Positions 1,144 to 28,466 of a stretch of 29,400 nt of DNA are shown piece after piece; the stretch's first letter is position 1; each line of letters starts with the position of its first letter. Source of the stretch: a virus; the IMG/VR virus record IMGVR_UViG_3300018476_000158, positions 1-29,400 of that record; one strand, 5' to 3'. Both the position numbers and the translations under genes were made by a program. Below the pieces are notes generated by a model that was not told the origin of the DNA, did not search any database, and was given only the letters and a program-made list of their open reading frames with translations.

Positions 1144-1802
1144 CGTCGTCTCCTTGAGCCCGCGGATTTCCACGGTCGACCCGACGTGTTACCGCCGTGC
1201 CAGTGCCACCGCCACGTACGCTCGGGAACGTGCGCGAACGTAGCTCCTACGTCCAGTAGCTTTCGCCACAGCGCCCAGTCCTCGCAGCAGTTCTCGGGCC
1301 ACTCGGGACTGTTCAACGTTGGGAAGCCACCGACCTCCTCGAGCAGCGTACGGCGCACCAGCACCGTAATCGGGATGAAGTTGTTGCGCGTCCGCAGCTC
1401 CTCACGGTGGAGGTCGCCGAACGGCAACCCGAACGGCGTGATCAACCTGTTGCCGACCCGGATGCGCAGCGGGTCGTTGCGCGTGATGTCGTTGCCGGCG
1501 TTGTCCACGATCGTGAACCACGGGTACACCAGATCCGCACCGGTCTCGTCCGCACAACGCCGCAGCAGCTCGACGTGATTGGGCAGCAGTTCGTCGTCGT
1601 CGTCCAGGAACGCTATCCAGTCGGTACCAGCCAGCTGCCAGGCGCGGTTACGCGTCGGTCCAGCGCCCTCGGCGTCGGTGTCCGACGCGACGCAGACGTC
1701 TATCGGTTGGTACGTCTGCACGCTGACCGACTCGACGGCGCGTCGCAGCAGATGCTCTCGTTCGGGAAACGTCGGAATGCAGACTGCGACGTCGGGCGTC
1801 AC
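1140..1802 (-). CDS. Family 2-like glycosyltransferase
   Basis: A 220-aa GT-A fold glycosyltransferase. It starts with the first-strand signature V-A-V-C-I-P-T-F near residues 5-12 and has a DDDDE metal/nucleotide-binding motif at residues 67-71. An E-D-W motif near 174-176 (the usual catalytic-base region) and a late W-H-W-H-G segment complete the family pattern. The start is GTG at 1802, forming a GTGA overlap with the stop of the dehydrogenase gene upstream; the ribosome site is weak, so translational coupling is likely. Its own stop overlaps the GTG of the next glycosyltransferase. There is no membrane segment, so it should act in the cytoplasm. Donor and acceptor cannot be read from the sequence. 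Confidence 0.82.
   Translation of the reverse strand: MTPDVAVCIPTFPEREHLLRRAVESVSVQTYQPIDVCVASDTDAEGAGPTRNRAWQLAGTDWIAFLDDDDELLPNHVELLRRCADETGADLVYPWFTIVDNAGNDITRNDPLRIRVGNRLITPFGLPFGDLHREELRTRNNFIPITVLVRRTLLEEVGGFPTLNSPEWPENCCEDWALWRKLLDVGATFAHVPERTWRWHWHGGNTSGRPWKSAGSRRRR
1150..1155 (-). promoter_or_regulatory. Ribosome binding site deciding the 1143 start
   Basis: AAGGAG on the minus strand, 6 nt before the GTG at 1143. It lies inside the end of the preceding glycosyltransferase gene and selects the internal GTG rather than the GTG at 1173. Confidence 0.7.
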
Positions 1803-3004
1803 CGCTTTCGTCCCGGCGTGACTACCGTGACTTCCGACAACTTCGGGACATAACCGAACGGGTCGATGACGACGCTACCCTTCGGAAATTCGACCGTGCG
1901 AAACTGTTCGTGCTTCGTCGCCAGAACGTACAGCGCTGGGTAGAGTCCGACGTCGCCGTCGAAGTACTCGAAGTGACGAAACTGCAACTCACGATCACGT
2001 AGGTACTCGGCGAGTAGGATAGCCGGTGAACCGGACATCATCTCGACGTTTGGCTTATACGACCGACCGAGAACGATCACCGCCAGTCCAGTCAACTCTC
2101 GCCAGTGCAGTACCAGGTCGGCCAGTCGTTCGGTCTGTGCCTCACGCGCTCGCGTTAGAAAGCCCATCAAGTCGACGGACAGTCCGTAGCGTTGCGCCAG
2201 CGCGGACAGCGCAACGTTGTCGCGCGGGTGACACGCACCGCCGTCACCCATGCCAGCGCGCAGATACCTCGTCGAGATGATCCGATCCGTGGCGTACTCG
2301 AGTGTGTCGATCACGTCGTCGACGTCGGCACCGGTCGCCTCGCACATCTCGGCCATCGTGTTCGCGTACACGATCTTCATCGAGATAAACGTGTTGTACG
2401 CGACCTTGGTGAGCTCGGCCGACGCGATCGACGTGGTTGGGTTAGGCGCGTCGTGAATCGGCCGGTACAGCTGCTCGACGGGTACCACGTCCGGATGGTG
2501 ATCGGCACCAAAGAGAATCATCTCTGGATTGATGAAGTCGTCGACGACCGTCCCCATGGCGATGAAGAACGGGTGGTAGACCGGCTTTACCCAGGGGTTC
2601 AGCAGCGGTCGTAGGTAGCGGTCGAACGTACCGGGCAGGACCGTCGAGACCACGACCAGCGTGATCTCCTTGCGCTGAAGCTCGGCCTCGTTGCAGACCT
2701 CACGTACGGCGTTGACCAGGTAGGCGTACTCGAACTCGCGCGGCGTTGTTGGCGCGACCGTCTCGCCGCCGTACGCCAGTGGGTGCGGCGTCTGGACTGC
2801 GACGTAGACGACGTTGTCGGTCTCGGCGACCACCTTGGCTACCGTGTCGCAGAGTTCGATGGGAGGTAGTCCCTCCCACGTGTACTCGTTGGGATCGACG
2901 CCGCGAACGTCGTAGCCCCAGACGGCGTGCTCACCGTGGTAGGCGAGTGCGGCAGCGCAAGGCGCACCGAGCTTCCCGAGTCCGATCCAACCGACGCTAC
3001 TCAC
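1799..3004 (-). CDS. UDP-glucose/GDP-mannose 6-dehydrogenase family protein
   Basis: A 401-aa NAD-dependent nucleotide-sugar dehydrogenase, a family that oxidises the C6 alcohol of a UDP- or GDP-hexose to a uronic acid in two steps. The N-terminal Rossmann motif is WIGLGKLG (glycines at residues 8, 10 and 13). The central helix carries the conserved K and N of ELTKVAYN (residues 200 and 204). The catalytic cysteine lies in GGACHPRD at residue 258; the family consensus is GGxCxPKD, so a Lys is replaced by Arg here. The GTG at 3004 is chosen because TAGGAG sits 5 nt upstream and the Rossmann strand follows at once; upstream in-frame codons only read through the neighbouring gene. It probably supplies a uronic-acid donor to the adjacent glycosyltransferases. 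Whether the base is UDP or GDP is unknown. Confidence 0.85.
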   Translation of the reverse strand: MSSVGWIGLGKLGAPCAAALAYHGEHAVWGYDVRGVDPNEYTWEGLPPIELCDTVAKVVAETDNVVYVAVQTPHPLAYGGETVAPTTPREFEYAYLVNAVREVCNEAELQRKEITLVVVSTVLPGTFDRYLRPLLNPWVKPVYHPFFIAMGTVVDDFINPEMILFGADHHPDVVPVEQLYRPIHDAPNPTTSIASAELTKVAYNTFISMKIVYANTMAEMCEATGADVDDVIDTLEYATDRIISTRYLRAGMGDGGACHPRDNVALSALAQRYGLSVDLMGFLTRAREAQTERLADLVLHWRELTGLAVIVLGRSYKPNVEMMSGSPAILLAEYLRDRELQFRHFEYFDGDVGLYPALYVLATKHEQFRTVEFPKGSVVIDPFGYVPKLSEVTVVTPGRKR

Positions 3005-3009
3005 ACGCT

Positions 3010-3015
3010 CTCCTA
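3010..3015 (-). promoter_or_regulatory. Ribosome binding site overlapping the upstream stop
   Basis: TAGGAG on the minus strand, 5 nt before the GTG at 3004. Its first three bases are the TAG stop of the RmlB-like gene, so termination and re-initiation are coupled. Confidence 0.65.
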
Positions 3016-3951
3016 CTGGTCGAGGTACCACCTCACGGTGCGTTCCAGTGCATCGTCGAACGTGACGCGTGGCGTCCAGTTGCCGGGCAGCACTGGGTAG
3101 TGCTGATCGTATCCGGGTCGATACTGCGTCACGTCGTACACCTGCCACTTGGGAGTGACACCGACGATACGGGCGGCCGCCTCGACCAGTTCGAGGTTGT
3201 TGAACGTCCGCTGACCGGGCAGCTGAAGTCGACCTGCCGGCCTACCGCGACGTAGCTCGGCGAGCAGTTCGTCGACGACGTTGCCGACGTACGAGTAGTG
3301 TCGAGTCCCGAGCTTGCCGTCGGCGGTGTGCACCTGAACGATACGACCGTTCCGCAGGTCGTCGACGACGATCGGCAGGAACGCGCCGTCCTGCTGGCGT
3401 TCGCCGATCATGTTCGCGCTGTTCACTATCGTCAACGGCAGTCGGTAGGTGCGCGCCCACGCCAGACAGAGTGACTCCTGCGCGGCCTTCGACGCCGCGT
3501 ATGGGCTCGACGGTTGGTAGTCGGTGACGCTGGTCGGTTCGTTAGGCCCATACACCTCGTCGGTCGACATCTGCACGAACCGGTCAACGCGTATGTCGCG
3601 CGCGAAGTCCAGCACGTTCAGCGTCAGCCGCACGTTGTTGTCGACGAACGTCAACGGGTCGCGAATCGACTCGTCGACGTGCGACCGCGAGGCGACGTTA
3701 ACGACGTCCGTGACGCCGTGCGTCAGTGCGAAGTCAGTCTGTCGCGCCGTGAACGGAACCGTTAGGTCGTGCGTGATCGACATCACACGCTCTCGATCCC
3801 AGTTGCAGGCCTCGAGCAGGTTGACGAACTTACCGCCAGACGTGAACGAGTCGACGCTGATCACGTCCCAGTCGGTCTCCTCGAGGATGCGCTGGATCAG
3901 GTGACTGCCGACGAAGCCCGCGCCGCCGGTGACGAGTACGGTTCGTGTCAC
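3013..3951 (-). CDS. RmlB-like NDP-sugar 4,6-dehydratase (extended SDR)
   Basis: A 312-aa extended short-chain dehydrogenase/reductase. The NAD-binding glycine motif TGGAGFVG lies at residues 8-15. STDEVYG at about 129-135 and YAASK at 151-155 supply the T-D-E and Y-x3-K residues typical of dTDP-glucose 4,6-dehydratases. UDP-glucuronate decarboxylases usually have Ser in place of that Asp, so the dehydratase reading is favoured. The product would be a 4-keto-6-deoxy NDP-sugar. The start is GTG at 3951 in a GTGA overlap with the upstream glycosyltransferase stop; a longer reading from 4041 only covers that neighbour. It is followed within 8 nt by the dehydrogenase. An epimerase role cannot be excluded. 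Confidence 0.85.
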   Translation of the reverse strand: MTRTVLVTGGAGFVGSHLIQRILEETDWDVISVDSFTSGGKFVNLLEACNWDRERVMSITHDLTVPFTARQTDFALTHGVTDVVNVASRSHVDESIRDPLTFVDNNVRLTLNVLDFARDIRVDRFVQMSTDEVYGPNEPTSVTDYQPSSPYAASKAAQESLCLAWARTYRLPLTIVNSANMIGERQQDGAFLPIVVDDLRNGRIVQVHTADGKLGTRHYSYVGNVVDELLAELRRGRPAGRLQLPGQRTFNNLELVEAAARIVGVTPKWQVYDVTQYRPGYDQHYPVLPGNWTPRVTFDDALERTVRWYLDQ

Positions 3952-4595
3952 AGCGCACTCGCCGGATGGTACGAAAAGTTTTCGTGGTGAATAGGCGTTC
4001 GTCTGGGACGGTCGCGACTCATGACGCGATTCGGACGCCACAGCGTGTCGGTCGACGATGAGTGGTAAAAATACATGATGTCGTCAATGTAACACTCAGT
4101 CTTAGCGTGTCCACGCACCTGGTCAGCCCAGCTCATATCCTCGGGCGGATCACCGCGTCGAAAGTCACCCAGCAACGCCAGTTGACGACGGATTGGGTTG
4201 AGGTGACTAACGTCACGATAGTGACCGTGACGACGTACAGCGTACGGAGGATTCTTAAGGCTGTGAAACGTCGGAAGCAGTTTTCTCTTGTCGACGTACG
4301 TCTGCATACGCCATCCTACGTAGTCGACGTCGGCGTCAAGGCACGCCATGACGCGTGCAACGTGATAGTCGGGTAGTTCGTCGTCGTCGTCGACAAACGA
4401 CACGTAGTCGGAGGTAGCGTGCTCGAGCAACGCCTGCCGTACGCATCCGAGCAGCTGCTCACCGTGGTTGTAGTACGCGCACACGGTGACGTTGCCGTCG
4501 TACGGTTCGGTCTGCGCGAGCAGTCCGGTCAGTAGACGTTCAAATCGAGACCGTCGCTGACCGACGGTCGCAATGAGTATCGTCCACGTCGTCAT
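3948..4595 (-). CDS. Family 2-like glycosyltransferase
   Basis: A 215-aa GT-A type glycosyltransferase. It opens with TWTILIATVGQR, has a DDDDE motif at residues 69-73 and an E-D-M-S-W-A-D segment at 152-158, the usual catalytic-base position. A late Y-x-Y-H-S-S segment is also present. The ATG at 4595 has no good ribosome site of its own. Instead a 13-codon mini-ORF with a strong site ends 4 nt upstream, suggesting translation by re-initiation. The stop overlaps the GTG of the RmlB-like gene. It has only weak motif-level resemblance to the other two GT2 genes here, so it is probably a distinct specificity rather than a recent duplicate. Confidence 0.75.
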   Translation of the reverse strand: MTTWTILIATVGQRRSRFERLLTGLLAQTEPYDGNVTVCAYYNHGEQLLGCVRQALLEHATSDYVSFVDDDDELPDYHVARVMACLDADVDYVGWRMQTYVDKRKLLPTFHSLKNPPYAVRRHGHYRDVSHLNPIRRQLALLGDFRRGDPPEDMSWADQVRGHAKTECYIDDIMYFYHSSSTDTLWRPNRVMSRDRPRRTPIHHENFSYHPASAL

Positions 4596-4599
4596 AGCG

Positions 4600-4641
4600 C
4601 TACGCGAGATCTGCCGCGTCGAATCCGTTGATGACCCACAC
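4600..4641 (-). CDS. 13-codon leader mini-ORF (MWVINGFDAADLA)
   Basis: GTG at 4641 overlaps the TAG stop of the methyltransferase gene (TAGTG). The 13 codons end at TAG 4602-4600, 4 nt before the ATG of the following glycosyltransferase. A clear AAGGAG lies at 4648-4653, 6 nt from the GTG, whereas the glycosyltransferase ATG has no such site. I see no homologous family in so short a peptide. It may be a coupling leader that brings ribosomes to the next gene, or the relic of a longer gene. It is called from spacing and ribosome-site logic only. Confidence 0.45.
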   Translation of the reverse strand: MWVINGFDAADLA

Positions 4642-5390
4642 TATCTTCTCCTTAGGACGGCACCGAGGTAGCGGCCGTCTGGTGTCAGGTACTCACAACG
4701 TTCGACGTCGAAGAGGTCACCGAACCACGTGGTCAGCTTAGCGGAGTCGTACCAGTCGGCGTAGTCGCCGACGTCGTCGAAGAAGCGTACGAACTGGTCG
4801 AACCTAGCGTGACGCTCGGTTGCATCACGTGGTGGTTCGGTGCCGGTCGCGATCCGCCAGCCGACGTCGGAGTACACCATGAGTCGGATCTCGCCGCTGG
4901 GACGCAACAACTCGTGCGCACGTTTCACGATCGCGCGTGGCCACCGTACGTGGTGCAGTACACCGTTGCAGTAGAACACGTCAAACGAGCCACTCGGTGA
5001 GTCGACGTACGGGTAGCGATCGGAGACTAGGTGCACGTTCGTCGGTAGTTGGTCGTATAACGCCAGCACGCGTGCGGCGAGCCAGCCGTTGTCCTCGCTC
5101 AAGTCCGCCAGCGCGACGAAGTTACCGGCGATCGACAACTCGAGGGCTTCGACGCCGACACCGCAACCGAAGTCAAGCACGTCCTTTCCGGTCAGCTCAT
5201 CGAGACCCATGACGTCACGCCAACGGTTCTCGTGGTTACGTGTTCCGCTGTACCGCGTACGACGCATTCGGTCGACGGTAGCCTTGAGCTTCCTGTTCGA
5301 CCACGTGCGCATTTCAGCTGACGAGACGTATCCCACGTCGTCGACCGGTGGCTGTGACCAAGCTGCAACGTGCTGCTCCCACGTAGTCAC
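4641..5390 (-). CDS. Class I SAM-dependent methyltransferase
   Basis: A 249-aa methyltransferase. Motif I is VLDFGCGVGVEA at residues 71-82, an acidic A-D-L-S-E follows at 95-99, and the post-motif FDVFYCNGVLHHV and LRPSGEIRLMVY segments match the Methyltransf_11/25 type fold. The start is GTG at 5390 in a GTGA overlap with the upstream glycosyltransferase, with GGTGA just ahead. It lies inside the sugar cassette, so methylation of a sugar hydroxyl on the virion glycan is the most reasonable inference. The substrate is not visible, and a protein or nucleic acid target is possible but less likely in this setting. The stop TAG is shared with the mini-ORF start. Confidence 0.8.
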   Translation of the reverse strand: MTTWEQHVAAWSQPPVDDVGYVSSAEMRTWSNRKLKATVDRMRRTRYSGTRNHENRWRDVMGLDELTGKDVLDFGCGVGVEALELSIAGNFVALADLSEDNGWLAARVLALYDQLPTNVHLVSDRYPYVDSPSGSFDVFYCNGVLHHVRWPRAIVKRAHELLRPSGEIRLMVYSDVGWRIATGTEPPRDATERHARFDQFVRFFDDVGDYADWYDSAKLTTWFGDLFDVERCEYLTPDGRYLGAVLRRR

Positions 5391-6684: not shown

Positions 6685-7812
6685 TTAGAATACCTCCTCA
6701 CCGGAGTCGAGCGTAACGCGTGTACGCGTCGTTCCGGTCTGCGGTTGGTCGGCGGTCAGTGGCGTGGAGAGCGTGTCGAGTACGTGAACGACCGAACCGT
6801 CGCGCGCCGTGACGGTGATCGCGTCAAACACCTCGAGCGCCGGATTGGGCACGGTCTGAAAGTTGATGTTGAACGGCAGACCGACCGCCTGCAGCAGGAT
6901 CGAACGTGCGGCAGACAACGCACCCGACGCTGACGTCAAGAACGACGAGAAGTAGAACCGAGGTACCTTACCGAACCGGCCGAACCAGTACGTCGGGCTG
7001 TCCGGGTTGGTGTCATAGACGACGGCCGTAATCGGTGGCACGGTGTCGTCGGTCGTCTCGCCGGTCGCCACGACGGCGTTGTAGACGCCGTCACGCGTAA
7101 GTTCACGTGACAGTCTGACGAGGACGCCGTTCGCACCGGCGTTGACCTCGTAGACGGGCACGGTCGGATCGGGTGGATCCTCGATTCGAAGTTGTCCACG
7201 ATAGTCCCAAAACATGATCTTACCGTACGACTTCGCGATGTCGGCTAGGAAGCGGTAGCGATCCTCCTCCGCGACGTGCGTTGTGTCAAACTGTGCCGCG
7301 TCTGCGTCGAAGTCAAAGAGGATCGTCGCGGTCGGATAGATCTCGTGGACCAGCGTGTCGAAGACCTCAGCGATCGTCGTTCCACTGGCGAACTGGATCG
7401 GAATAGGAATGCGACCGTCGATGATACCGACCATGCGGTCGCTGCCCGAGATCTGAATGTCGCCGTCTGGTCCCTCATCCTGGTCGACCGAGTCGATGCG
7501 GAAGTAGCCGAGTGGCACGATCTCGACAGTGCCGTTGCCGTAGTCGACACCACGCTCGACGAACAGCTCGTTCCCGTACGGCGTCAGCAAGCTGTCCGTA
7601 CTCGCGGGCCAGCGTCGTATACCGAGTGTTGTGATGTCGACGGTCTGACGGACGTCCGCCTTGGCGTCGGCACGCACGTCACCGTCGACGATTCGGATCT
7701 CGACGCCCGTCGGTGCGGTACCCTCCTGGTACGCCGTGAGCACCTTGACGCGCGAGAACATCTTGTGACTACCGCGTATCGTGGAGAGAAACGCGTCGCT
7801 GACCGGTCTCAC
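6685..7812 (-). CDS. DUF5047-like minor tail / tail hub protein
   Basis: A 375-aa tail protein. Its N-terminal 120 residues (VSDAFLSTIRGSH, TGVEIRIVDGDV, DVRQTVDITTLG) match the pattern I associate with DUF5047 of actinophage minor tail proteins. The middle and C-terminal parts (ISGSDRMVGIIDGRI, FLADIAKSYGKIMFWDYRG) resemble tail hub or baseplate proteins of the gp27/Tal type that close the tail tube. GTG at 7812 overlaps the TAG stop of the upstream tail gene by one base; the longer reading to 7926 is an Arg-rich artefact of that gene. Its place after the tape measure and before the tip gene fits a hub role. Confidence 0.7.
   Translation of the reverse strand: MRPVSDAFLSTIRGSHKMFSRVKVLTAYQEGTAPTGVEIRIVDGDVRADAKADVRQTVDITTLGIRRWPASTDSLLTPYGNELFVERGVDYGNGTVEIVPLGYFRIDSVDQDEGPDGDIQISGSDRMVGIIDGRIPIPIQFASGTTIAEVFDTLVHEIYPTATILFDFDADAAQFDTTHVAEEDRYRFLADIAKSYGKIMFWDYRGQLRIEDPPDPTVPVYEVNAGANGVLVRLSRELTRDGVYNAVVATGETTDDTVPPITAVVYDTNPDSPTYWFGRFGKVPRFYFSSFLTSASGALSAARSILLQAVGLPFNINFQTVPNPALEVFDAITVTARDGSVVHVLDTLSTPLTADQPQTGTTRTRVTLDSGEEVF
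6692..6699 (-). promoter_or_regulatory. Strong ribosome binding site for the 6683 start
   Basis: GAGGAGGT on the minus strand, 8 nt before GTG 6683 and inside the end of the DUF5047-like gene. It decides against the longer reading from 6701. Confidence 0.7.
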
Positions 7813-9215
7813 TACGGCACCACAACCTCGGTAACACTGCCGACGATTTCGATCAACGCGAGCCACGTGTCCTTGTCGTCGACGACTTCCGCCCAGTCGG
7901 TGTACTCGTCGATTACGGTCTGCCACGTACTGGTTGAACCTACGACGCCAGCGCCCGGCGCGGCGACCTCGATCAGCGGTAGCGTGAAGACGCGTAGATC
8001 TCGATTGCAGAGTCGATCCAGCAGTGGTCGAGTCTCGGTCGAGTTGTCGACGATCACGTTCATCGTTGGCAGTGGGTGGTGGAACGGCGTGTGAATGAAC
8101 AGTGGGTCACCGGTACCGATGATGACGTTCATAGCCAGCCGGTCGTCGATCGATGTGAACACGAGGTCGATCGTCAGTCGTCGTGAGCCACGTAGCTCGC
8201 TGCCAGCGGACGGCAGCGAGTGACCGACGGTCACACTGATCGGTCCACGGTTGTCACGCGAGATGCGTCCGGGATCGGGCGCACAGTTCAGCAGTCGGTT
8301 CAGAAACGGTCGACCGAGCGACTTAAGCCAGACTCCGTCCAGTGACGGTGTGATCGACGACGACTGCGAGCTGGTCGTCGGTGGGATCGATACCGAGACG
8401 CCACGCGACACGGCGGTCGCACCGCCGGTAACTGTGAACACGGCGCTGGTGACCGGAAGCGCGTTGGTCTGGATCAGTCGTCCCCACGTGATGCCTTGGT
8501 CGTCGCCGAGCGTCGTCGACGGTTCACCGATCTCGGTGAAGCCGCTAGGTGACGTGACCGACGTCCAGTCGTCCTGCTTCCAGCCGAGTGCTAGGACGAC
8601 CGAGTTATCTTGCGTGACCGTCAGGTCGGGTACCGCGATGTTCTGCGCCGTTGCGTTCAGCGCACCGGCTGCGTCGACGTACGCGAGTTGCGCGTTACGA
8701 AACGTCGCCATCTGCGCCGAGAACGACATGGTCGCGCCGCCGGTGCCCGTGAAGTTGACGGTCGGGTTAGGCTCGCTACCGTCGTGAATCTTACCGAACA
8801 GTCGTGCGTTCGCGGCGTCGACGAGCAGCTGGTAGCCGGTCGGTACGCTCGGGACGCCTTGGCCAGACGAACGCGTAGCCGCCCAGATGAGTAGTAGGTC
8901 GTTGATTGTCGAGCTGGCCGGCACGGTCGGCGTCACACTCGCGTTGGCTGCGTGCGCGGCTGTGCCGGCGTTGATGAACGTGATCGTGTTCGGGTAGACC
9001 ACGCGGTAGTAGTTGACGACGTCTGACGAAAACTCGTAGTCGTCGACCGTGGCTAGTACACCGGCAGTGACCGGAACCTGCGAAGCACCGCGCACGGTCG
9101 TCCAGACTACCTGGTTAAGTGATCGCTGGACCGTGGCGGACGTCGCGCTGCCGAGTCCGGTCGCGTTGACGTGCACGCGCGCTAATGTGCTGTCGTACGT
9201 CAGAGTCACAGTCAC
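7812..9215 (-). CDS. Minor tail protein, paralogue with inserted beta domain
   Basis: A 467-aa tail protein that is a paralogue of the gene just upstream. Residues 1-80 (LTYDSTLARVHVNATGLG) and residues from 295 onward (VWLKSLGRPFLNRLLNC, RVFTLPLIEV) align with that 271-aa protein. Between them sits an extra domain of about 200 residues (81-285) with NDLLLIWAATRSSG, GKIHDGSEPNP and SFSAQMATFRNAQL. That pattern recurs in phage fibre and secreted beta-sandwich domains. GTG 9215 overlaps the upstream TGA, and GAGGTGAT lies a few bases before it. The inserted domain could be surface-exposed and bind host carbohydrate; this is inference. Confidence 0.65.
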   Translation of the reverse strand: MTVTLTYDSTLARVHVNATGLGSATSATVQRSLNQVVWTTVRGASQVPVTAGVLATVDDYEFSSDVVNYYRVVYPNTITFINAGTAAHAANASVTPTVPASSTINDLLLIWAATRSSGQGVPSVPTGYQLLVDAANARLFGKIHDGSEPNPTVNFTGTGGATMSFSAQMATFRNAQLAYVDAAGALNATAQNIAVPDLTVTQDNSVVLALGWKQDDWTSVTSPSGFTEIGEPSTTLGDDQGITWGRLIQTNALPVTSAVFTVTGGATAVSRGVSVSIPPTTSSQSSSITPSLDGVWLKSLGRPFLNRLLNCAPDPGRISRDNRGPISVTVGHSLPSAGSELRGSRRLTIDLVFTSIDDRLAMNVIIGTGDPLFIHTPFHHPLPTMNVIVDNSTETRPLLDRLCNRDLRVFTLPLIEVAAPGAGVVGSTSTWQTVIDEYTDWAEVVDDKDTWLALIEIVGSVTEVVVP

Positions 9216-10027
9216 GGAATGATCACCTCGCTCGGCTCAGCGACGTGTTCGAGTAGATCAGCCCAGGTAGCATTGTCCGCGATGACGTCGGACCACGTCG
9301 AGTACGTCACGATGACTGAGTACCACGAGAACGTGTGACCGACGACGTCGTCCTCCGGCAGCTCGATCTGAACGAGCGGCAACGTGAAACTTCGTATGTC
9401 GACGTCGCAATCTCGGTTGCGGACCGGACGGTCCTCCTCGGTGTTCTCGACAGCGACAAACATCGAACTCAGCGGAAACGTCGCCGTCGTCTGTAGGTAC
9501 AGCAGGTCGCCAGACGCCAGGAGAAAATCGAGTCCCTCCTGCTCATCGTACGTTCGTGTCACCGTCCGCAGATTGACGTTCAGTCCACTTCGAACGTCGG
9601 TGACCGCGACGGGAAAGCTTCGACCGAGGATATCGAAGATCCCGCCACGCGACTCGCGACCGATCGGCGACGGGTTGAGTACGCAGTCCAGCTCGCGGTT
9701 CAGAAACGGGCGTTCGACGGACTTAAGCCAGACCTGGGTCTGGTTGACCGTGATCGTACAGGTCGTCGACGCGGTCTGCGCACCGCTGGAGTTCTGACCG
9801 CGTACGCGGTACGTCAGCTGGTGACCGATCGTGTACTCGTAGTCGTCCGTCGTCAGCAACGTGGCACCGCCGCTGACCGGGATTCCAGTACCACCGCGAA
9901 TGAACGCGAACGTCGATCCGGCGTCGTCACTGCGCTCGACGGTCGCTGTGACGGCGGTACCGCCCAGCGACGTCGCGTCGACGCGTACGCGTCCTAGCGT
10001 AGCGTCGTACGACAGACTGCACGCCAC
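9212..10027 (-). CDS. Minor tail protein
   Basis: A 271-aa tail protein. Residues 1-85 look like an Ig/FN3-like beta domain (SLSYDATLGRVRVDATSLG, ending in YRVRGQNSSG). The motif VWLKSVERPFLNRELDC at residues 99-115 is followed by a beta-rich domain ending in RSFTLPLVQIEL and an aromatic tail region. The N- and C-terminal parts are shared with the next gene downstream, indicating duplication. The GTG start has AAGGAG 5 nt upstream. It belongs to the tail-tip group between tape measure and hub. No enzymatic motif is seen. Confidence 0.62.
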   Translation of the reverse strand: MACSLSYDATLGRVRVDATSLGGTAVTATVERSDDAGSTFAFIRGGTGIPVSGGATLLTTDDYEYTIGHQLTYRVRGQNSSGAQTASTTCTITVNQTQVWLKSVERPFLNRELDCVLNPSPIGRESRGGIFDILGRSFPVAVTDVRSGLNVNLRTVTRTYDEQEGLDFLLASGDLLYLQTTATFPLSSMFVAVENTEEDRPVRNRDCDVDIRSFTLPLVQIELPEDDVVGHTFSWYSVIVTYSTWSDVIADNATWADLLEHVAEPSEVIIP

Positions 10028-21894: not shown

Positions 21895-23670
21895 TTACAG
21901 GTTGGTGCAAGCCGCGCCAGCCGCCAGCTGGCCACCGGTCTTACCGTTGACGCAGAAGTTGATCGTGTACTGGCGCGACTCGTGTCCGACCATCGCGATC
22001 AGGTGGCACTCCTCGGACCAGGCGGCCGTGTGGTCGTTGGTCTCGTTGAGCGTCGAGTCGCGAACCACGCCGAGGTCGAGCGACAGGCCGTTGCCCTTGA
22101 TGAAGGTACCGGCCGCGTAGAGCATGATCGTCGCGCTGACCGGCCAGTCGTCGATCTCGGTGGCGTTACCGAACTGACCCGCACCGCGCACCTGCCAGTC
22201 GTTGACCCACTGCACGCGGACGTTGAGTGCCGCGAAGTGCGAGTTGATCTCACCGTCCGAGACCTGCCGGACGTCGACGCCGTTGCGCCACGCCAGGTCG
22301 GCGCGGATGACGGCCTTGAGCCAGAACGGCGCGACGGCCTCGAGGACGTCGCCCTCGCACATGCCGTAGCGAGCGCGGTAGTCGGTCGCGGCGAGCGACA
22401 GACCGCCGTACACCTGCTGGTACACGGGCTGACCGGTGACGGCGAACGAGCCGGTGTCGATGGCCGCGCTGGACCGCGACACCATGTGCGCGATCAGACG
22501 GCCGTTGATGGCGTGCGCGTGCGCGGCCATCATCAGCTGCAGGAAGTTACGCGTCGCCTCGGGATACGCGTCGTCGGTCAGGTTACCGGCGGTGACGCAG
22601 AGGCCGTAGCACTCCAGGCGCTCCTCGTCGAACGTCGGGCATGGGACGCGAATGCACGGCTTGGTCGGCGAACCGGTGACGGCCGCGATGTCGTCAGCCT
22701 CGGTCCAGAGCCACGGAATCGACGTGCCCGAGAACGGCTCCGAGAAGCCACCGAACGCCTGGTTGGTGGTACCGAACACGTCAGCCAGCGACGGCGAGAC
22801 GGGGAACTGGATACCACCACGCGACACACCGAACGTCGGCAGGTCGATCAGACCGTCCTCACAGGCGATGTTGAAGAAGTCGTAGCGGATCTCGGACGGG
22901 GCGCACCAGCCGCCAGCCGCGACGAGAGAGTCCTTCTTGTCCTGCGAAGTGAGGTGTTCGAAGAGTTCGGCGACCTGACCGGGAGCGGTACGGTCGTCGA
23001 TGGTGTGCTCGAACTCGTTACGGATCGAGGCTACGAGCTGCATGTTCGGGTTGCCGTTCGAGACCGGCATCGACTTCGCCTTGCGCTGGACGATGTCCAC
23101 GAGACGGTTCAGGTCGTCGACGCCCTCGCCACGTGCGACGCCCGGAATGTCGACCGACGCTGTGACGGCGAGCTTCTGCTTCGGCAGGTCCGACTGCGGC
23201 GCGTACCGACGAGCGTCGGACAGCGACGGACGATCCATGACGCGCGTCAGTTCACGACCGGCGACGCGGTCACCGAGCACGGACACGAGAGCGGCAGTCG
23301 CGCCTCGCGCGGCGGCGGCGGCGATACTCTCAGCGTCGACCGACGGAGTCAAGTCACCCGGCTGCACACCGGCGGCGTTGTCGTCGCCCGGTCCGTGAAC
23401 GCGCAACCTGAGGTTCTGCTGATCGCTGAGCAGCTTAGACTGCGCAACGCGCGCAGCCTCCTCGGCGCGAGCCTTGCGCGCGGCCATCTCGGCGCGGATG
23501 CGATCCACGTCGTCGGCGAGACGCATGCCGTACTGGACGGTGTCGGGAGTCACCTCGTCCAGCGTGTTGATGCGGTCAAACTCCTTGACGGCCTGTGTGC
23601 CGTACTCCTCGAGCTCCTTGTCGCTGACAAGCGTGAGGTCCTCGGGGATGTGCACAAGCTCCTCAGGCAT
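21895..23670 (-). CDS. Major capsid protein with long N-terminal extension
   Basis: A 591-aa HK97-fold type capsid protein. GGWCAPSE, followed by D-F-F-N-I-A-C-E-D-G-L-I-D-L-P, near residues 252-280 is the core signature shared by actinophage major capsid proteins. Residues about 15-90 are highly charged and helical (RIRAEMAARKARAEEAARVA), consistent with a built-in scaffolding (delta) domain cleaved by the upstream protease; residues to about 230 form the extension. Eight or more Cys occur in the core. AAGGAG lies 7 nt before ATG. Portal and protease upstream complete the head module; no separate scaffold gene is seen. Confidence 0.85.
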   Translation of the reverse strand: MPEELVHIPEDLTLVSDKELEEYGTQAVKEFDRINTLDEVTPDTVQYGMRLADDVDRIRAEMAARKARAEEAARVAQSKLLSDQQNLRLRVHGPGDDNAAGVQPGDLTPSVDAESIAAAAARGATAALVSVLGDRVAGRELTRVMDRPSLSDARRYAPQSDLPKQKLAVTASVDIPGVARGEGVDDLNRLVDIVQRKAKSMPVSNGNPNMQLVASIRNEFEHTIDDRTAPGQVAELFEHLTSQDKKDSLVAAGGWCAPSEIRYDFFNIACEDGLIDLPTFGVSRGGIQFPVSPSLADVFGTTNQAFGGFSEPFSGTSIPWLWTEADDIAAVTGSPTKPCIRVPCPTFDEERLECYGLCVTAGNLTDDAYPEATRNFLQLMMAAHAHAINGRLIAHMVSRSSAAIDTGSFAVTGQPVYQQVYGGLSLAATDYRARYGMCEGDVLEAVAPFWLKAVIRADLAWRNGVDVRQVSDGEINSHFAALNVRVQWVNDWQVRGAGQFGNATEIDDWPVSATIMLYAAGTFIKGNGLSLDLGVVRDSTLNETNDHTAAWSEECHLIAMVGHESRQYTINFCVNGKTGGQLAAGAACTNL

Positions 23671-23762: not shown

Positions 23763-23936
23763 CTACTGTGCCGTGCTCTCGGTACCAGTCCTCGAGTACG
23801 GTCCATTCTCAGGTCGCCACGTCGGTTCAGGTGTCGACGGGGTGGGGCTCGCCGACGCGATCCGAGCCGCGCGTTCGGCCAGCATCTCTTCCTGACGTAG
23901 GACGCGCTGCTTACGCTTGTTGCAGTTGCAACCCAC
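23763..23936 (-). CDS. 57-aa Cys-x-Cys small protein
   Basis: A small open frame: GTG 23936 overlaps the TAG of the protease gene (TAGTG), with GGAGGAGG at 23944-23951, 7 nt away. The product starts MGCNCNKRKQRVLRQEEML, so has a C-x-C pair at residues 3 and 5 followed by a basic, then acidic helix, and ends in a Pro/Ser/Thr-rich tail. Small proteins with an N-terminal GCxC and basic stretch are familiar beside capsid genes in actinophages, but I know no function. It may bind a metal or assist the protease or capsid. Confidence 0.7.
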   Translation of the reverse strand: MGCNCNKRKQRVLRQEEMLAERAARIASASPTPSTPEPTWRPENGPYSRTGTESTAQ

Positions 23937-26590
23937 TAGTCTGCCTCCTCCGTCAGCGACAGTCGACCTCTCGACAACTGAACGCGCTGCACGAGAAGTC
24001 CCATGACGCGCTTCATCGCGAGCTGATCGAGCTGCTCGTCGTTGGGCGCTACGTCCGGACCACTGCCGACCGTGGTTCGACCGGCCGCGATCAGAGCCTG
24101 TGGCGCACCGGACGCCACGCGAGCGCGCGGTGCCTGGATCGGGAAGCCCGGTACGTTGACGGCCAGTAGACCGACGAGTCGCAGCTGGCCACCGATGCGT
24201 CGCCAGTCGCCAGATACGCGACCGGACGCGCGCAGCTCGTGTACACGCGACGCGGCAACGCTCGCGCGGATCGCACCGGCGACCCAGATGCCGAACTTGT
24301 CGTTGCCGACGGCGACGTCGGCCACCGATGCGCCGGTGTTGTCGTAGTGCTCCGCCGCGTGCGACGCGCGGTACGACAACGGTGCGTGTCCGGTGCCGAC
24401 CGTGATCTGTCCGACCGCGACGCGCGTGCCGTCCGAGCAGACCAACTCGCCGGTCATGAAGTACGGGTGCGCGTCCTCAGCCGGCAGTGTGACGCACTGG
24501 TCACTGAAGCCGATGTGGCACTCACCCCACTGCGCGGCGTGACCGTAGACGCGACCCTCGTCGGTGACCGTGATACCGGTTGGTACCGACAGGTTCGGGT
24601 TGACGAACCAGCTCGACTCGGGTCGCCAGTCGTCCAGGACGATGGCCGCCGCGATCGACTCACGATCCTCGAGCGGCTGCGGTTCCTGCCCGGCGTCACG
24701 CAGGTGCGCCGCCATGTGCGCGTAGATCGTCGCGCGCTCGACGTCACTGACGCCACTGGTGCGCAGTTCGGCGATCGCGGCCGCGCATGCGGTCAGGTTA
24801 GCCGCACCGACGGTGCCGTCCTCGTCGACCTCGTGGTGTAGGAATCGACAGTCGGTCTTGCCGACTCGGCCGTTGACGTCCTCGCCGTGCCACGCGTACG
24901 CGGCCTCAGCGAGCTCCAGCGGCAGCACGTTCGGCAGTCGTCGGACGGTCGAGCTAGCGTCCCAGGGAGCGTCCGACGTCGGCGTGCTGTGCGCCGCGAC
25001 GACGAACCTGAAGCGCTCGTCCGACGCGCCCGCGACGAGCTCCTCGATCGCGGTCTCACGGGTGCCCAGCTGGATGCGTGCCTCGACGAACGCCGGGATG
25101 TCGACCAGTGTAGCGGCGCGAATTCGACCGGCGTGAAAGATCATCTTCTTAGGTGTGTCGAACAGCAACTTCAGCGGGTCGTCCTCGTCGGTGCCGTCCG
25201 GTTCGTCCGCCCAGACGAACTCGACGTCGGCGTCCGAGATGTCGTCCGCGTCGATCGAGATGCCACCCGCGAAGCCGTTGCCCAGCCGTCGCCAGATCTC
25301 GTAGCCGTCGGCCGACTCGAGGTCGATGACGCCCTCGCCGTAGAGCTGGTTACCCTCACGGTAGACGCGGTCGATTCGACCGACCGACACGGTAACGTCG
25401 TTCTGTCCGCCGTGCGCGCCCTCCTTCTGCCAGCGCAGCAGCATGGTGTCGGCCCACGTCAACGCGTCCGGCGCGAACTCGCGACCGTCACCGGTCGTCA
25501 CACCCTCGACGACGAGCGTGCCGTGCCACGCAGACATGGTGGCGTAGTCGTCGTCCGAGACGCAGTCGCCGTTCGGCAGCTTGCGACTGCCGGGAGGACA
25601 GTCGGTCTTAGACTTGTCGGCGAAGTTTGTAGCGTCGCCCTCGGACGACGACTTCTTCTTAGGCTTGAACGGCGGTGCCTTACCGTCGCCACCGGTAGCG
25701 TCTGGGCTGTCCGTCGGTACGTCGGCCTTGGTCTTGTACGTCAACGTGTTCGAGTTCGGCAGTAGATCACCACCGAGGTTCTTAAACTCAATCTTATCGG
25801 TAGTCGCGGTGCCGTCGCTCACGTCTGCTCCTAGATCTTCGGTGGTGCCGCCGTCGCTTCCACCGTCCTCGGACGCGTACAGTGCCGCAAGCTGGTCGTT
25901 CGCGTCGGACTCAGAGGTGTGACAACCGGCGACGGAACCGTCGGCGTCCTTGACGACCGCCCAAGGCTTTCCGTCGGTGCACTCCGCGTGATTCTTAACG
26001 ACGTGCCACGGCACTATGACACCTCCTGAAGTCGACGCAACGGTAGCAGTCACTCCTAGCGGAACGTCGAAAACTTGACCGGCAAAGGCGAGACGCACGC
26101 GGTCAAACGTCACGTCGCCGAGTCGCCGCGCGCACTCGGCGGTCCAGTCGTCGGCGGCGTACGCCAGACAAATGTGCGGTACCCACGGCGAGTGCTGCAC
26201 CGGCATGACTAAGTTAACCATACCGTCGGCGAGCGCCTCGGTCATCATGCCTCGAATCGCGCCGAGCCCGTCGGTCGTCAACTCGTCGGCCGGCAGGTCA
26301 CCGACGTTGAGCACCCACGCTGGATTGTCACTCGTCGGGTTCCAGTGCGCGTAGCCAAACGCTCGGCCGTGAACGACCGGTAGCGATCGATTCTCGATCA
26401 TGGACGTGACCGCGTTGACCAGTTCGCGTCGAGTCGCGTCGTCGAAGTCGGCACCATTGCCGAGGTAGAACAGCGTCAGGTGAAGCTCGTCGCGCGGCTC
26501 CGCGCCGTCCTCGTCGATCGCGAGCCGATCCAGGTTCGCGTCCGTCGGGATCAGCGCGATCATGGCGCCGGTGCTGGCCTCACTTCCCAC
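23936..26590 (-). CDS. 2H phosphoesterase-capsid maturation protease fusion
   Basis: An 884-aa multidomain protein. Residues 10-185 form a 2H phosphoesterase (2'-5' RNA ligase-like) domain with H-L-T at 37-39 and H-I-C at 139-141. Residues 194-240 hold a small Cys/His module (VPWHVVKNHAEC, AGCHTSESDAN). About 100 residues of Ser/Gly/Lys linker follow. Residues about 350-530 match a prohead protease (SAWHGTLVVEGVTTGDGREF, G-F-A-G-G-I-S-I-D, LVDIPAFVEARI). A further C-terminal region holds K-T-D-C-R-F-L-H-H and YAHMAAHLRDAG. GTG 26590 has GGAG 5 nt upstream and overlaps the portal gene; ATG 26563 (residue 10) is an alternative. The protease should cleave the capsid extension. The role of the 2H domain is unknown. 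Confidence 0.8.
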   Translation of the reverse strand: MGSEASTGAMIALIPTDANLDRLAIDEDGAEPRDELHLTLFYLGNGADFDDATRRELVNAVTSMIENRSLPVVHGRAFGYAHWNPTSDNPAWVLNVGDLPADELTTDGLGAIRGMMTEALADGMVNLVMPVQHSPWVPHICLAYAADDWTAECARRLGDVTFDRVRLAFAGQVFDVPLGVTATVASTSGGVIVPWHVVKNHAECTDGKPWAVVKDADGSVAGCHTSESDANDQLAALYASEDGGSDGGTTEDLGADVSDGTATTDKIEFKNLGGDLLPNSNTLTYKTKADVPTDSPDATGGDGKAPPFKPKKKSSSEGDATNFADKSKTDCPPGSRKLPNGDCVSDDDYATMSAWHGTLVVEGVTTGDGREFAPDALTWADTMLLRWQKEGAHGGQNDVTVSVGRIDRVYREGNQLYGEGVIDLESADGYEIWRRLGNGFAGGISIDADDISDADVEFVWADEPDGTDEDDPLKLLFDTPKKMIFHAGRIRAATLVDIPAFVEARIQLGTRETAIEELVAGASDERFRFVVAAHSTPTSDAPWDASSTVRRLPNVLPLELAEAAYAWHGEDVNGRVGKTDCRFLHHEVDEDGTVGAANLTACAAAIAELRTSGVSDVERATIYAHMAAHLRDAGQEPQPLEDRESIAAAIVLDDWRPESSWFVNPNLSVPTGITVTDEGRVYGHAAQWGECHIGFSDQCVTLPAEDAHPYFMTGELVCSDGTRVAVGQITVGTGHAPLSYRASHAAEHYDNTGASVADVAVGNDKFGIWVAGAIRASVAASRVHELRASGRVSGDWRRIGGQLRLVGLLAVNVPGFPIQAPRARVASGAPQALIAAGRTTVGSGPDVAPNDEQLDQLAMKRVMGLLVQRVQLSRGRLSLTEEAD

Positions 26591-28466
26591 TGAGACTCCA
26601 GCCGTTCACGGTCACCAGCTCGTCCTCGTGCGGGAAGACACGACGACCGATACGTACCTCACCGGTCGGTCCCATGAAGCACTCGTAGTCGCCACCGGTA
26701 CCCGGACGGATCGTGACACCATCGCGCGTCGCATACGTAAACGGACAGGAGAACAACTTCTCCTGACAGAGTAGTGGGTGCTTGAGCTTCCAGCCAGCGA
26801 CGCCGAACTCCATGATGTGCTGCGACCGCGCCTGCAGCAGCGTGAACGCGTCACGCTTATTGATCCGCGACTCGGTCTTCGACGGATCACCGCCGTCGCC
26901 GGCACCTCCGGCGTCCGCGTTACTGGACGGGTCGCCCGGCTCGCTGGCGTCGTCGGCCTCGTCCGGTAGTCCACGACTGCTCTGGTGGTTGGTCTTCTGC
27001 TCGCCCACGACGTCGGTGTCGGGCTGTCCCATGGTCATGTCGGGCGGCATCATGCCGGTCAGCTCGTGCAGCGCTAGGAAGCCGATCTGCGGGTTGGTCG
27101 CCAACTTCTTGAGCACGATGGTCTCGAGCTCGTCGTCGGTCGGTGCGTCGTCCTCGGTCAGTCCGACTTCGCGACGCAGCGCCTTGCCGCTGACCTCGAA
27201 CCGGTCGTACAGCTTCAGTACGTTCGCAGAGCGGTCCGGCCGTGCGATGATCTCGGAGGCGTCGTACCAGACGACCCACTTTTCCCAGTCGTCGACGCCC
27301 TGTGCCTGCAGCATCGGGTGTAGGTAGCCACGCGTCAGTCCGCCGCAGATGATCTCGACGTCCGGCGCGATGTGAATCTTGATCGCCGACTCCTCGAGCT
27401 GCCACAAGCCCCAGTGGTTCAGCGAACCCGCGTCGAACAGCAGTTCGGTAGGAACGTTGATCATCGACGCGAGGTTACGACGCGCGTTGTCGCGCTTATC
27501 GACGATCTTGTCGTCGATCTTCAACGTGAAGTCGACGTGTCGAATCTTGTCGATGTACTCACCGGGTACACGGATCGGAATCGGCACGACAGCGGCGGCG
27601 GTGCCCGGTGTCTTGATCGCCTCACGCGCGGTCTCGATCCACTCGCGTACGAACGGATCCGGCTCGTCCTGGAACTCGTCACGCACTGGAAACGTGATCT
27701 CGTCCGGAAAGATGACTACACCGGCGGACGCCAGACGCGACAGATACTGCGCCTGAATGTGTCGATTGACCAGCTCCAGTTCACGCATGGCGGCGCGTGC
27801 CGCCTTAGCCGGCGAGTACGCTAGGTGACGATACCGCTTGTGAGGTCGCCAGATTCGAACGATGTAGTGATCAGCCGCCAGGTCGCGCCACTCCATGTTG
27901 CCGAGCGATGACGCCTCGTCGATCACCTGGTACGTGTTGCTGCGCTTACGGATCTCGTCGTTAGATCGAACCTGCCAGATGTTCTTATCACCAACGGATT
28001 CGCCGATCAGCCAGCCCTCACCGGGAATGTCCAGCATAGTCGACATAGTCGACATGACCTCAGTGGTCGAGTTCACGTCGCTGGTCAGCTCGGCGACGAT
28101 CTCAGCGGCCGGTCCGTTGTCGAAGATCGTCGGTTCGTCTGCACCCGTCTCGAGCTTGGCGGCGCGCAGTCGAACGCGACTGATCATGTTGGCGCGCCAC
28201 GTTACGGCGTAGCCGAACTCACCGAGGTCGTCGTAGTAGTCCCAGAGTTCGCGCTGCCAGGACTCGTACTGCGGCACGAGCGCGCGCCGTCCGCCCGCGA
28301 TGGCGTTGATCGACAGCGCGGCGGCCGTCAAGTTGCCTCGGTCGATCGGCGTCACGCTGGCGAGCGCAGCGGACGATACGTCGATCGGCGGCGCAAACGC
28401 CTCGACGGCGCTGCCGTTGACGGTGAGAGGCGCGGTCGGCCACTTACGCTGCCAGGGCCAGGGCAT
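26580..28466 (-). CDS. Portal protein
   Basis: A 628-aa portal protein, the dodecameric ring through which DNA enters and leaves the head. The central portion (YRHLAYSPAKAARAAMRELE, F-P-D-E-I-T-F-P-V, D-N-A-R-R-N-L-A-S-M-I-N-V-P, LFDAGSLNHWGLWQLEESAI) follows the order of siphovirus portal proteins. Residues about 475-515 are a low-complexity acidic linker. The last 110 residues form an extra region (WKLKHPLLCQEKLF, GDYECFMGPTGEVRIGRRVF) beyond the usual portal core. AGGAGG lies 4 nt before ATG. The stop overlaps the protease start. Confidence 0.87.
   Translation of the reverse strand: MPWPWQRKWPTAPLTVNGSAVEAFAPPIDVSSAALASVTPIDRGNLTAAALSINAIAGGRRALVPQYESWQRELWDYYDDLGEFGYAVTWRANMISRVRLRAAKLETGADEPTIFDNGPAAEIVAELTSDVNSTTEVMSTMSTMLDIPGEGWLIGESVGDKNIWQVRSNDEIRKRSNTYQVIDEASSLGNMEWRDLAADHYIVRIWRPHKRYRHLAYSPAKAARAAMRELELVNRHIQAQYLSRLASAGVVIFPDEITFPVRDEFQDEPDPFVREWIETAREAIKTPGTAAAVVPIPIRVPGEYIDKIRHVDFTLKIDDKIVDKRDNARRNLASMINVPTELLFDAGSLNHWGLWQLEESAIKIHIAPDVEIICGGLTRGYLHPMLQAQGVDDWEKWVVWYDASEIIARPDRSANVLKLYDRFEVSGKALRREVGLTEDDAPTDDELETIVLKKLATNPQIGFLALHELTGMMPPDMTMGQPDTDVVGEQKTNHQSSRGLPDEADDASEPGDPSSNADAGGAGDGGDPSKTESRINKRDAFTLLQARSQHIMEFGVAGWKLKHPLLCQEKLFSCPFTYATRDGVTIRPGTGGDYECFMGPTGEVRIGRRVFPHEDELVTVNGWSLSGK

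Follow-up and report, generated by a model that had tools for sequence, protein, structure and literature searches.

The window, the whole of a 29.4-kb virus fragment from IMG/VR, carries on its minus strand a long gene that sits between the genes for the portal and the major head protein. Table 1 collects the features of this gene and of its surroundings. The reading frame starts with a GTG codon, and the closest relative that we found (L002) has ATG in the same position. The structural block ends with genes for a UDP-glucose/GDP-mannose dehydrogenase, an NAD-dependent epimerase and a methyltransferase (1799-4041 and 4641-5390, minus strand), which suggest virion glycosylation. PADLOC gives no match.

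Table 1. The fusion gene, its domains and motifs, and the adjoining head genes, in the order in which they are transcribed
Feature	Coordinates	Strand	Description and basis
Portal protein gene	26580..28466	-	Adjoins the fusion gene upstream, 11 nt overlap; phrog_776, E 2e-105
GGAG ribosome-binding-like site	26596..26599	-	5 nt upstream of the GTG start; read from sequence
Whole fusion gene	23936..26590	-	884 aa; 2H domain, small Cys/His domain, linker, herpes-fold capsid protease and second conserved C-terminal domain
2H phosphoesterase domain	26051..26572	-	Residues 7-180; predicted by AlphaFold (pLDDT 92.7); fold matches to LigT, CPDase and Usb1
First motif, H37-L-T39	26474..26482	-	Invariant, 94/94 relatives
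Second motif, H139-I-C141	26168..26176	-	H139 in 93/94; position 141 C82/T10/A2
Small conserved domain	25856..26014	-	Residues 193-245; signature HAEC..KPWAVVKDADG.VAGCH; matches to a purpose-built HMM in many loci
Low-complexity linker	25556..25855	-	Residues 246-345; from sequence; varies between relatives
Capsid maturation protease domain	25028..25555	-	Residues 346-521; structure matches and conserved residues
Helical domain	24671..24904	-	Residues 563-640; purpose-built HMM matches 34 loci
C-terminal domain	24041..24655	-	Residues 646-850; invariant H692 and H735; PHROG 18402/29860
Major head protein gene	21895..23670	-	Directly downstream of the fusion gene; phrog_777, E 1.5e-132

A 2H phosphoesterase domain with Cys in the second motif

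A preliminary description of this DNA had read H-L-T and H-I-C in the N-terminal 185 residues as the paired motifs of a 2H enzyme. Both are present, and the fold predicted around them agrees with that reading. The AlphaFold model of the domain, built with 94 sequences, is confirmed as a bilobal 2H fold by its structure matches, for which Foldseek was also used. The best solved structures are all 2H enzymes: TT0787 (Z 14.6), drCPDase (Z 14.5), E. coli LigT and human Usb1 (both Z 12.9). Rotavirus VP3 (Z 11.9) and the phage nuclease Acb1 (7t26, Z 10.2) follow. H37 and H139 are predicted to lie at the start of two strands, their canonical positions. At the sequence level, the PHROG family phrog_2659, named "RNA ligase", matches residues 4-184 with E 6e-22, and Pfam PF13563 matches the isolated domain with E 1.5e-4 and 22.3 bits, under its 27-bit gathering cut-off; two relatives, L208 (33.7 bits) and L213 (30.7 bits), pass that cut-off. 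Fold, PHROG score and conservation together rule out a chance match of the motifs.

The His of both motifs are conserved in homologues. Amongst 94 diverse relatives, T39 is as invariant as H37, and a single relative departs at H139. Because the first 2H search pattern itself contained H37 and T39, we counted separately the 25 of these relatives that were found via the protease instead of via 2H patterns. Here H37 and T39 are kept in 25/25, and H139 and C141 in 24/25 each. Three Trp residues (W83, W92 and W136) are conserved as well. The domain is under purifying selection, with w between 0.30 and 0.43 against four relatives, of the same order as that of the protease domain.

Of the two H-x-[T/S] motifs, the first is an invariant HLT, and the second keeps its His with mostly Cys in the third position. 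The preliminary description was right that the second motif is altered. The Cys is not peculiar to the window: it occurs clade-wide (82/94), which rules out a one-off mutation or an error, and it is the norm in head-fused members. A second set of 94, which shares some members with the first and takes in distant phage members, has C72/T18/A4 at this position. Ala stands there in L064, L067, L068 and L079. In L134 the second catalytic His is replaced by Arg, and the first motif is HCT.

These replacements bear on whether the domain is an enzyme at all. A degenerate 2H fold that is kept for structure or binding only, the Cys of motif 2 marking lost catalysis, would agree with Cys or Ala at position 141 in most members and with the one Arg in place of H139. 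We consider such a fold very improbable, given the purifying selection on the domain and how little H37, T39 and H139 vary. Apart from the Cys in motif 2, the active site appears intact.

The capsid protease and the other domains

The partner had been described as a capsid protease, and it is one by both structure and context. Residues 346-521 match T4 gp21 (Z 10.0), the VZV protease (Z 9.7) and other herpesvirus proteases, and this assemblin-like fold lying beside portal and major capsid genes supports the identification. In this domain S445 is kept in 74/75 sequences and H486 in 71/75; Ser445 with His393/His486 are the candidate catalytic residues.

Around the protease, the small domain at 193-245 precedes it with or without the 2H domain, and it is kept in two relatives (L100 and L104) that have no 2H. 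The helical domain at 563-640 resembles, as we take it, DUF6582. The C-terminal domain at 646-850 is the slowest-evolving part of the protein (w 0.06-0.33). An AlphaFold model of residues 346-884 resolves the first protease domain, and a structure search with it assigned no fold to the C-terminal domain, which may be a second protease-like domain.

Architectures of the fusion

With the 2H domain as query, tblastn yields 399 phage records, whose hosts are all actinobacterial. Amongst 97 viral or phage ORFs with a 2H domain, 69 include window-type protease domains and 8 include a MuF-like domain, a call that relies on a purpose-built HMM and on phage annotation, with TIGR01641 below cut-off. Most of the others adjoin such domains. 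In the IMG/VR loci, likewise, the 2H domain is joined to the protease, to MuF-like domains or to the two together, or is adjacent to them. In bacterial and archaeal genomes, searched with one genome per species, we find 47 2H relatives, all in records named as actinobacterial. In 42 of these, the 2H domain is in one ORF with window-type head protease domains, including four cases in Nocardia and Rhodococcus in which it lies between the two protease domains. The remaining five are three fusions to a Mu-I-like protease (L213-L215), one fusion to an ADP-ribosyltransferase (L208) and one relative with no protease assigned (L174).

The position of the 2H domain varies. It can precede the protease domains, lie between them or follow them; elsewhere it stands ahead of MuF-like domains or is encoded by a neighbouring gene. 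In TurkishDelight it is found inside an annotated "capsid maturation protease and MuF-like fusion". In the Gordonia phage GTE6 it follows the protease in a single gene, and in Twister6 it is in the next gene, gp19. In relatives with large genomes (Wally gp94, E3 gp74 and RedWattleHog gp19), it is a separate gene amongst the head genes.

The protease family varies too. The 2H domain shares one ORF with an XkdF-like protease (PF14550) in ValentiniPuff gp7 and Shrooms gp18 (L019 and L020), with a Mu-I-like protease (PF10123) in L213, L214 and L215, and with a ClpP-type head maturation protease in L024 (NF045542, 192.6 bits for a cut-off of 120). We take XkdF-like, Mu-I-like and window-type proteases to form one herpes-protease-like clan, and ClpP to be an unrelated fold; therefore, at least one fusion involves an unrelated protease fold. 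In the tree, the head-fused clade takes in the ClpP case and the Mu-I cases. Long branches lead to the XkdF cases, whose placement is unsure.

Three other observations come from these loci. In L208, from Dactylosporangium fulvum, a prophage-like ORF of 873 aa (6980-9598) with a MuF-like ORF upstream combines a 2H domain (10-165) with a C-terminal ADP-ribosyltransferase exoenzyme domain (711-869; PF03496, 3e-18), a protein that is polyvalent effector-like. In L142, the ORF from 695 has a MuF-like domain split by approximately 390 residues (about 227-617), with intein-like ends (CLAPEVLV... ...VHNC). Head proteins with a 2H domain are annotated inconsistently in public records: the phage records H65, H70, H77 and H180 name them "portal protein", "RNA ligase", "aldolase class I" or "head maturation protease".

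Loss of the 2H domain

Of the relatives found via the C-terminal domain, 55 have a portal gene visible upstream. The 2H domain is present in 45 of these and absent from ten; the ten include same or near-identical contigs, such as L004/L104 and L140/L141. In L100, 87% identical in its C-terminal domain, precisely the 2H domain is missing, with the rest of the protein kept. L100 retains LG.TATVASTSGGVIVPWH, the stretch that ends the 2H domain and continues after it. There is no copy of the 2H domain anywhere in the 100.9-kb contig of L100, by a search that detects four positive controls. The 2H domain is dispensable. From these patterns of presence and absence we conclude that the slot before the protease holds a 2H domain, a 2H domain plus MuF, MuF alone, or nothing.

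An essential role in assembly is made unlikely by L100 and by the other relatives without the domain. A broader assembly role, in which the 2H domain aids prohead assembly or rids the prohead of RNA or nucleotides before DNA is packaged, would agree with the constant link to a maturation protease. The same losses (10/55, and the clean one in L100) argue against it, as do the shifting place of the domain within the protein and its joining a ClpP-type protease, and we find it quite improbable. In general, an accessory enzyme accounts better than a purely structural or assembly role for the losses and for the conservation of the His pair.

A proposed packaged enzyme

On balance, we lean towards an accessory 2H enzyme with its His pair intact that enters the prohead attached to head-internal proteins and is then delivered with the DNA. 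The capsid maturation protease would be drawn into the prohead during assembly, bringing the fused enzyme inside; in relatives, it could also be MuF-like proteins or head proteases of another kind that carry it. The low-complexity linker could allow proteolytic release of the enzyme, which would stay in the head, enter the next host together with the DNA, and there break a 2'-5', 3'-5' cyclic or 2',3'-cyclic phosphodiester.

The steps of this proposal differ in strength. Effector domain and head protein are found in one polypeptide encoded in the head module, and this architecture strongly supports an association of the 2H domain with the head. Packaging of the enzyme is probable. Delivery into the cell is an even call. 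Fragments of HK97-type proteases are thought to leave the prohead; therefore, fusion to the protease need not mean retention. Against packaging, the free-standing 2H genes of Wally, E3 and RedWattleHog show no packaging route. In the literature, searched for Bxz1-, E3- and Streptomyces-type phages, we found no virion proteomics of any member of the fusion family. As for the substrate, we infer a phosphodiester that comes from the host, in a nucleotide signal of its defence or at the end of a damaged RNA. Defence signals are a tentative choice, cyclic-phosphate RNA ends a rather doubtful one, and another kind of RNA cleavage is more doubtful again.

The main rival is an enzyme that stays in the cytosol and acts late in infection, in RNA repair or counter-defence, never being delivered and owing its fusion to the protease solely to co-expression and dosage. 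Free-standing 2H copies near the head genes of large genomes would be expected of such an enzyme, and T4 Acb1 (57B) is a free-standing 2H enzyme (PMC9117128). However, co-expression alone gives no reason for the fusion partners to be head-internal proteins, with several protease families and MuF-like domains amongst them, and a partner that enters the prohead would take the enzyme out of the cytosol. We judge it unlikely.

Somewhat less unlikely is that the enzyme, delivered or not, heals RNA ends, opening the 2',3'-cyclic phosphates that host defence nucleases leave on the tRNAs they cut, so that a ligase can repair these. The closest solved structures are RNA 2',3'-cyclic phosphodiesterases (LigT and the CPDases), and the name of the PHROG family points the same way. 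Yet there is no RNA ligase or kinase amongst the genes scanned in the window, itself a fragment, and, according to Iyer et al. 2017 (PMC5512222), this kind of 2H domain has never been seen with RNA ligases.

If a packaged and delivered enzyme is correct, then Gordonia, Streptomyces and other actinobacterial phages, many of them sequenced and tractable, carry a pre-made enzyme in the particle that could blunt a response of the host ahead of all phage gene expression, and the capsid protease both matures the head and serves as a delivery vehicle. A more speculative generalisation, which we offer as a possibility short of probable, is that actinophage head maturation proteases of any family act as adaptors that load an immune-evasion phosphodiesterase through a modular slot (2H, MuF, both or nothing), with proteolysis perhaps freeing the cargo.

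Comparison with known systems

In sequence, the nearest family is LigT/ThpR (PF13563/PF02834, "2'-5' RNA ligase"), which has the fold and the His of both motifs in common with the window domain. The window domain differs in falling below the Pfam cut-off, in having HxC for the second HxT/S, and in being fused to head proteins. The anti-CBASS nuclease Acb1 (T4 57B, FBB1) is a phage 2H fold like the window domain and offers a plausible function. In T4, however, it is free-standing, whereas the window 2H domain is fused. Acb1 is characterised by the aromatic base-stacking residues Y12, W74, F107 and W147, and by E141. Amongst our 94 members, the Pfam Acb1 model (PF23474) has no match at E 0.01, and hhalign of the 2H family against T4 57B gives a probability of 1.4%. 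Membership in Acb1 thus has no sequence support, and we therefore do not class the window domain as Acb1. In the T4 genome, 57B directly adjoins ipI, a gene for an internal head protein (L221:1092-1911).

Enzymes carried on head-internal proteins have been described before. In Microbacterium phages, a VIP2-like toxin, an ADP-ribosyltransferase, is fused to MuF (PMC7302621). This toxin and the MuF polymorphic toxins (PMC5576092) are, as here, enzymes on a head-internal protein thought to be part of the virion. In those systems other enzymes sit on MuF, whereas here a 2H domain stands before MuF or directly before the protease. Close in design, too, are the polyvalent 2H proteins of Iyer et al. 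2017 (PMC5512222), in which phage 2H domains fused to MuF or portal, 2H and head protein being in one polypeptide as in the window, are listed amongst packaged and injected proteins and proposed to be RNases or degraders of nucleotide signals. A later paper (PMC9503650) repeats the packaged-2H proposal and also mentions Nudix domains fused to a capsid-processing peptidase.

The interpretation in the preliminary description is partly supported: strongly for the link to the head, and as inference for packaging, delivery and an anti-defence substrate. Packaged 2H enzymes had already been proposed in the papers above; on a 2H domain fused to the capsid protease we found no paper, in a literature coverage that is incomplete. 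Relative to the published systems, the partner in the window is a capsid maturation protease, a pairing repeated across several protease families; the head-fused clade has HxC as its second motif; and a close relative has cleanly lost the domain. The published idea of packaged 2H enzymes is thereby extended, by the coupling to the protease, by its recurrence with several protease families and by the Cys variant. If they are indeed packaged, a head-borne 2H enzyme acting against nucleotide signals, as already hypothesised in print, becomes directly testable in cultured phages.
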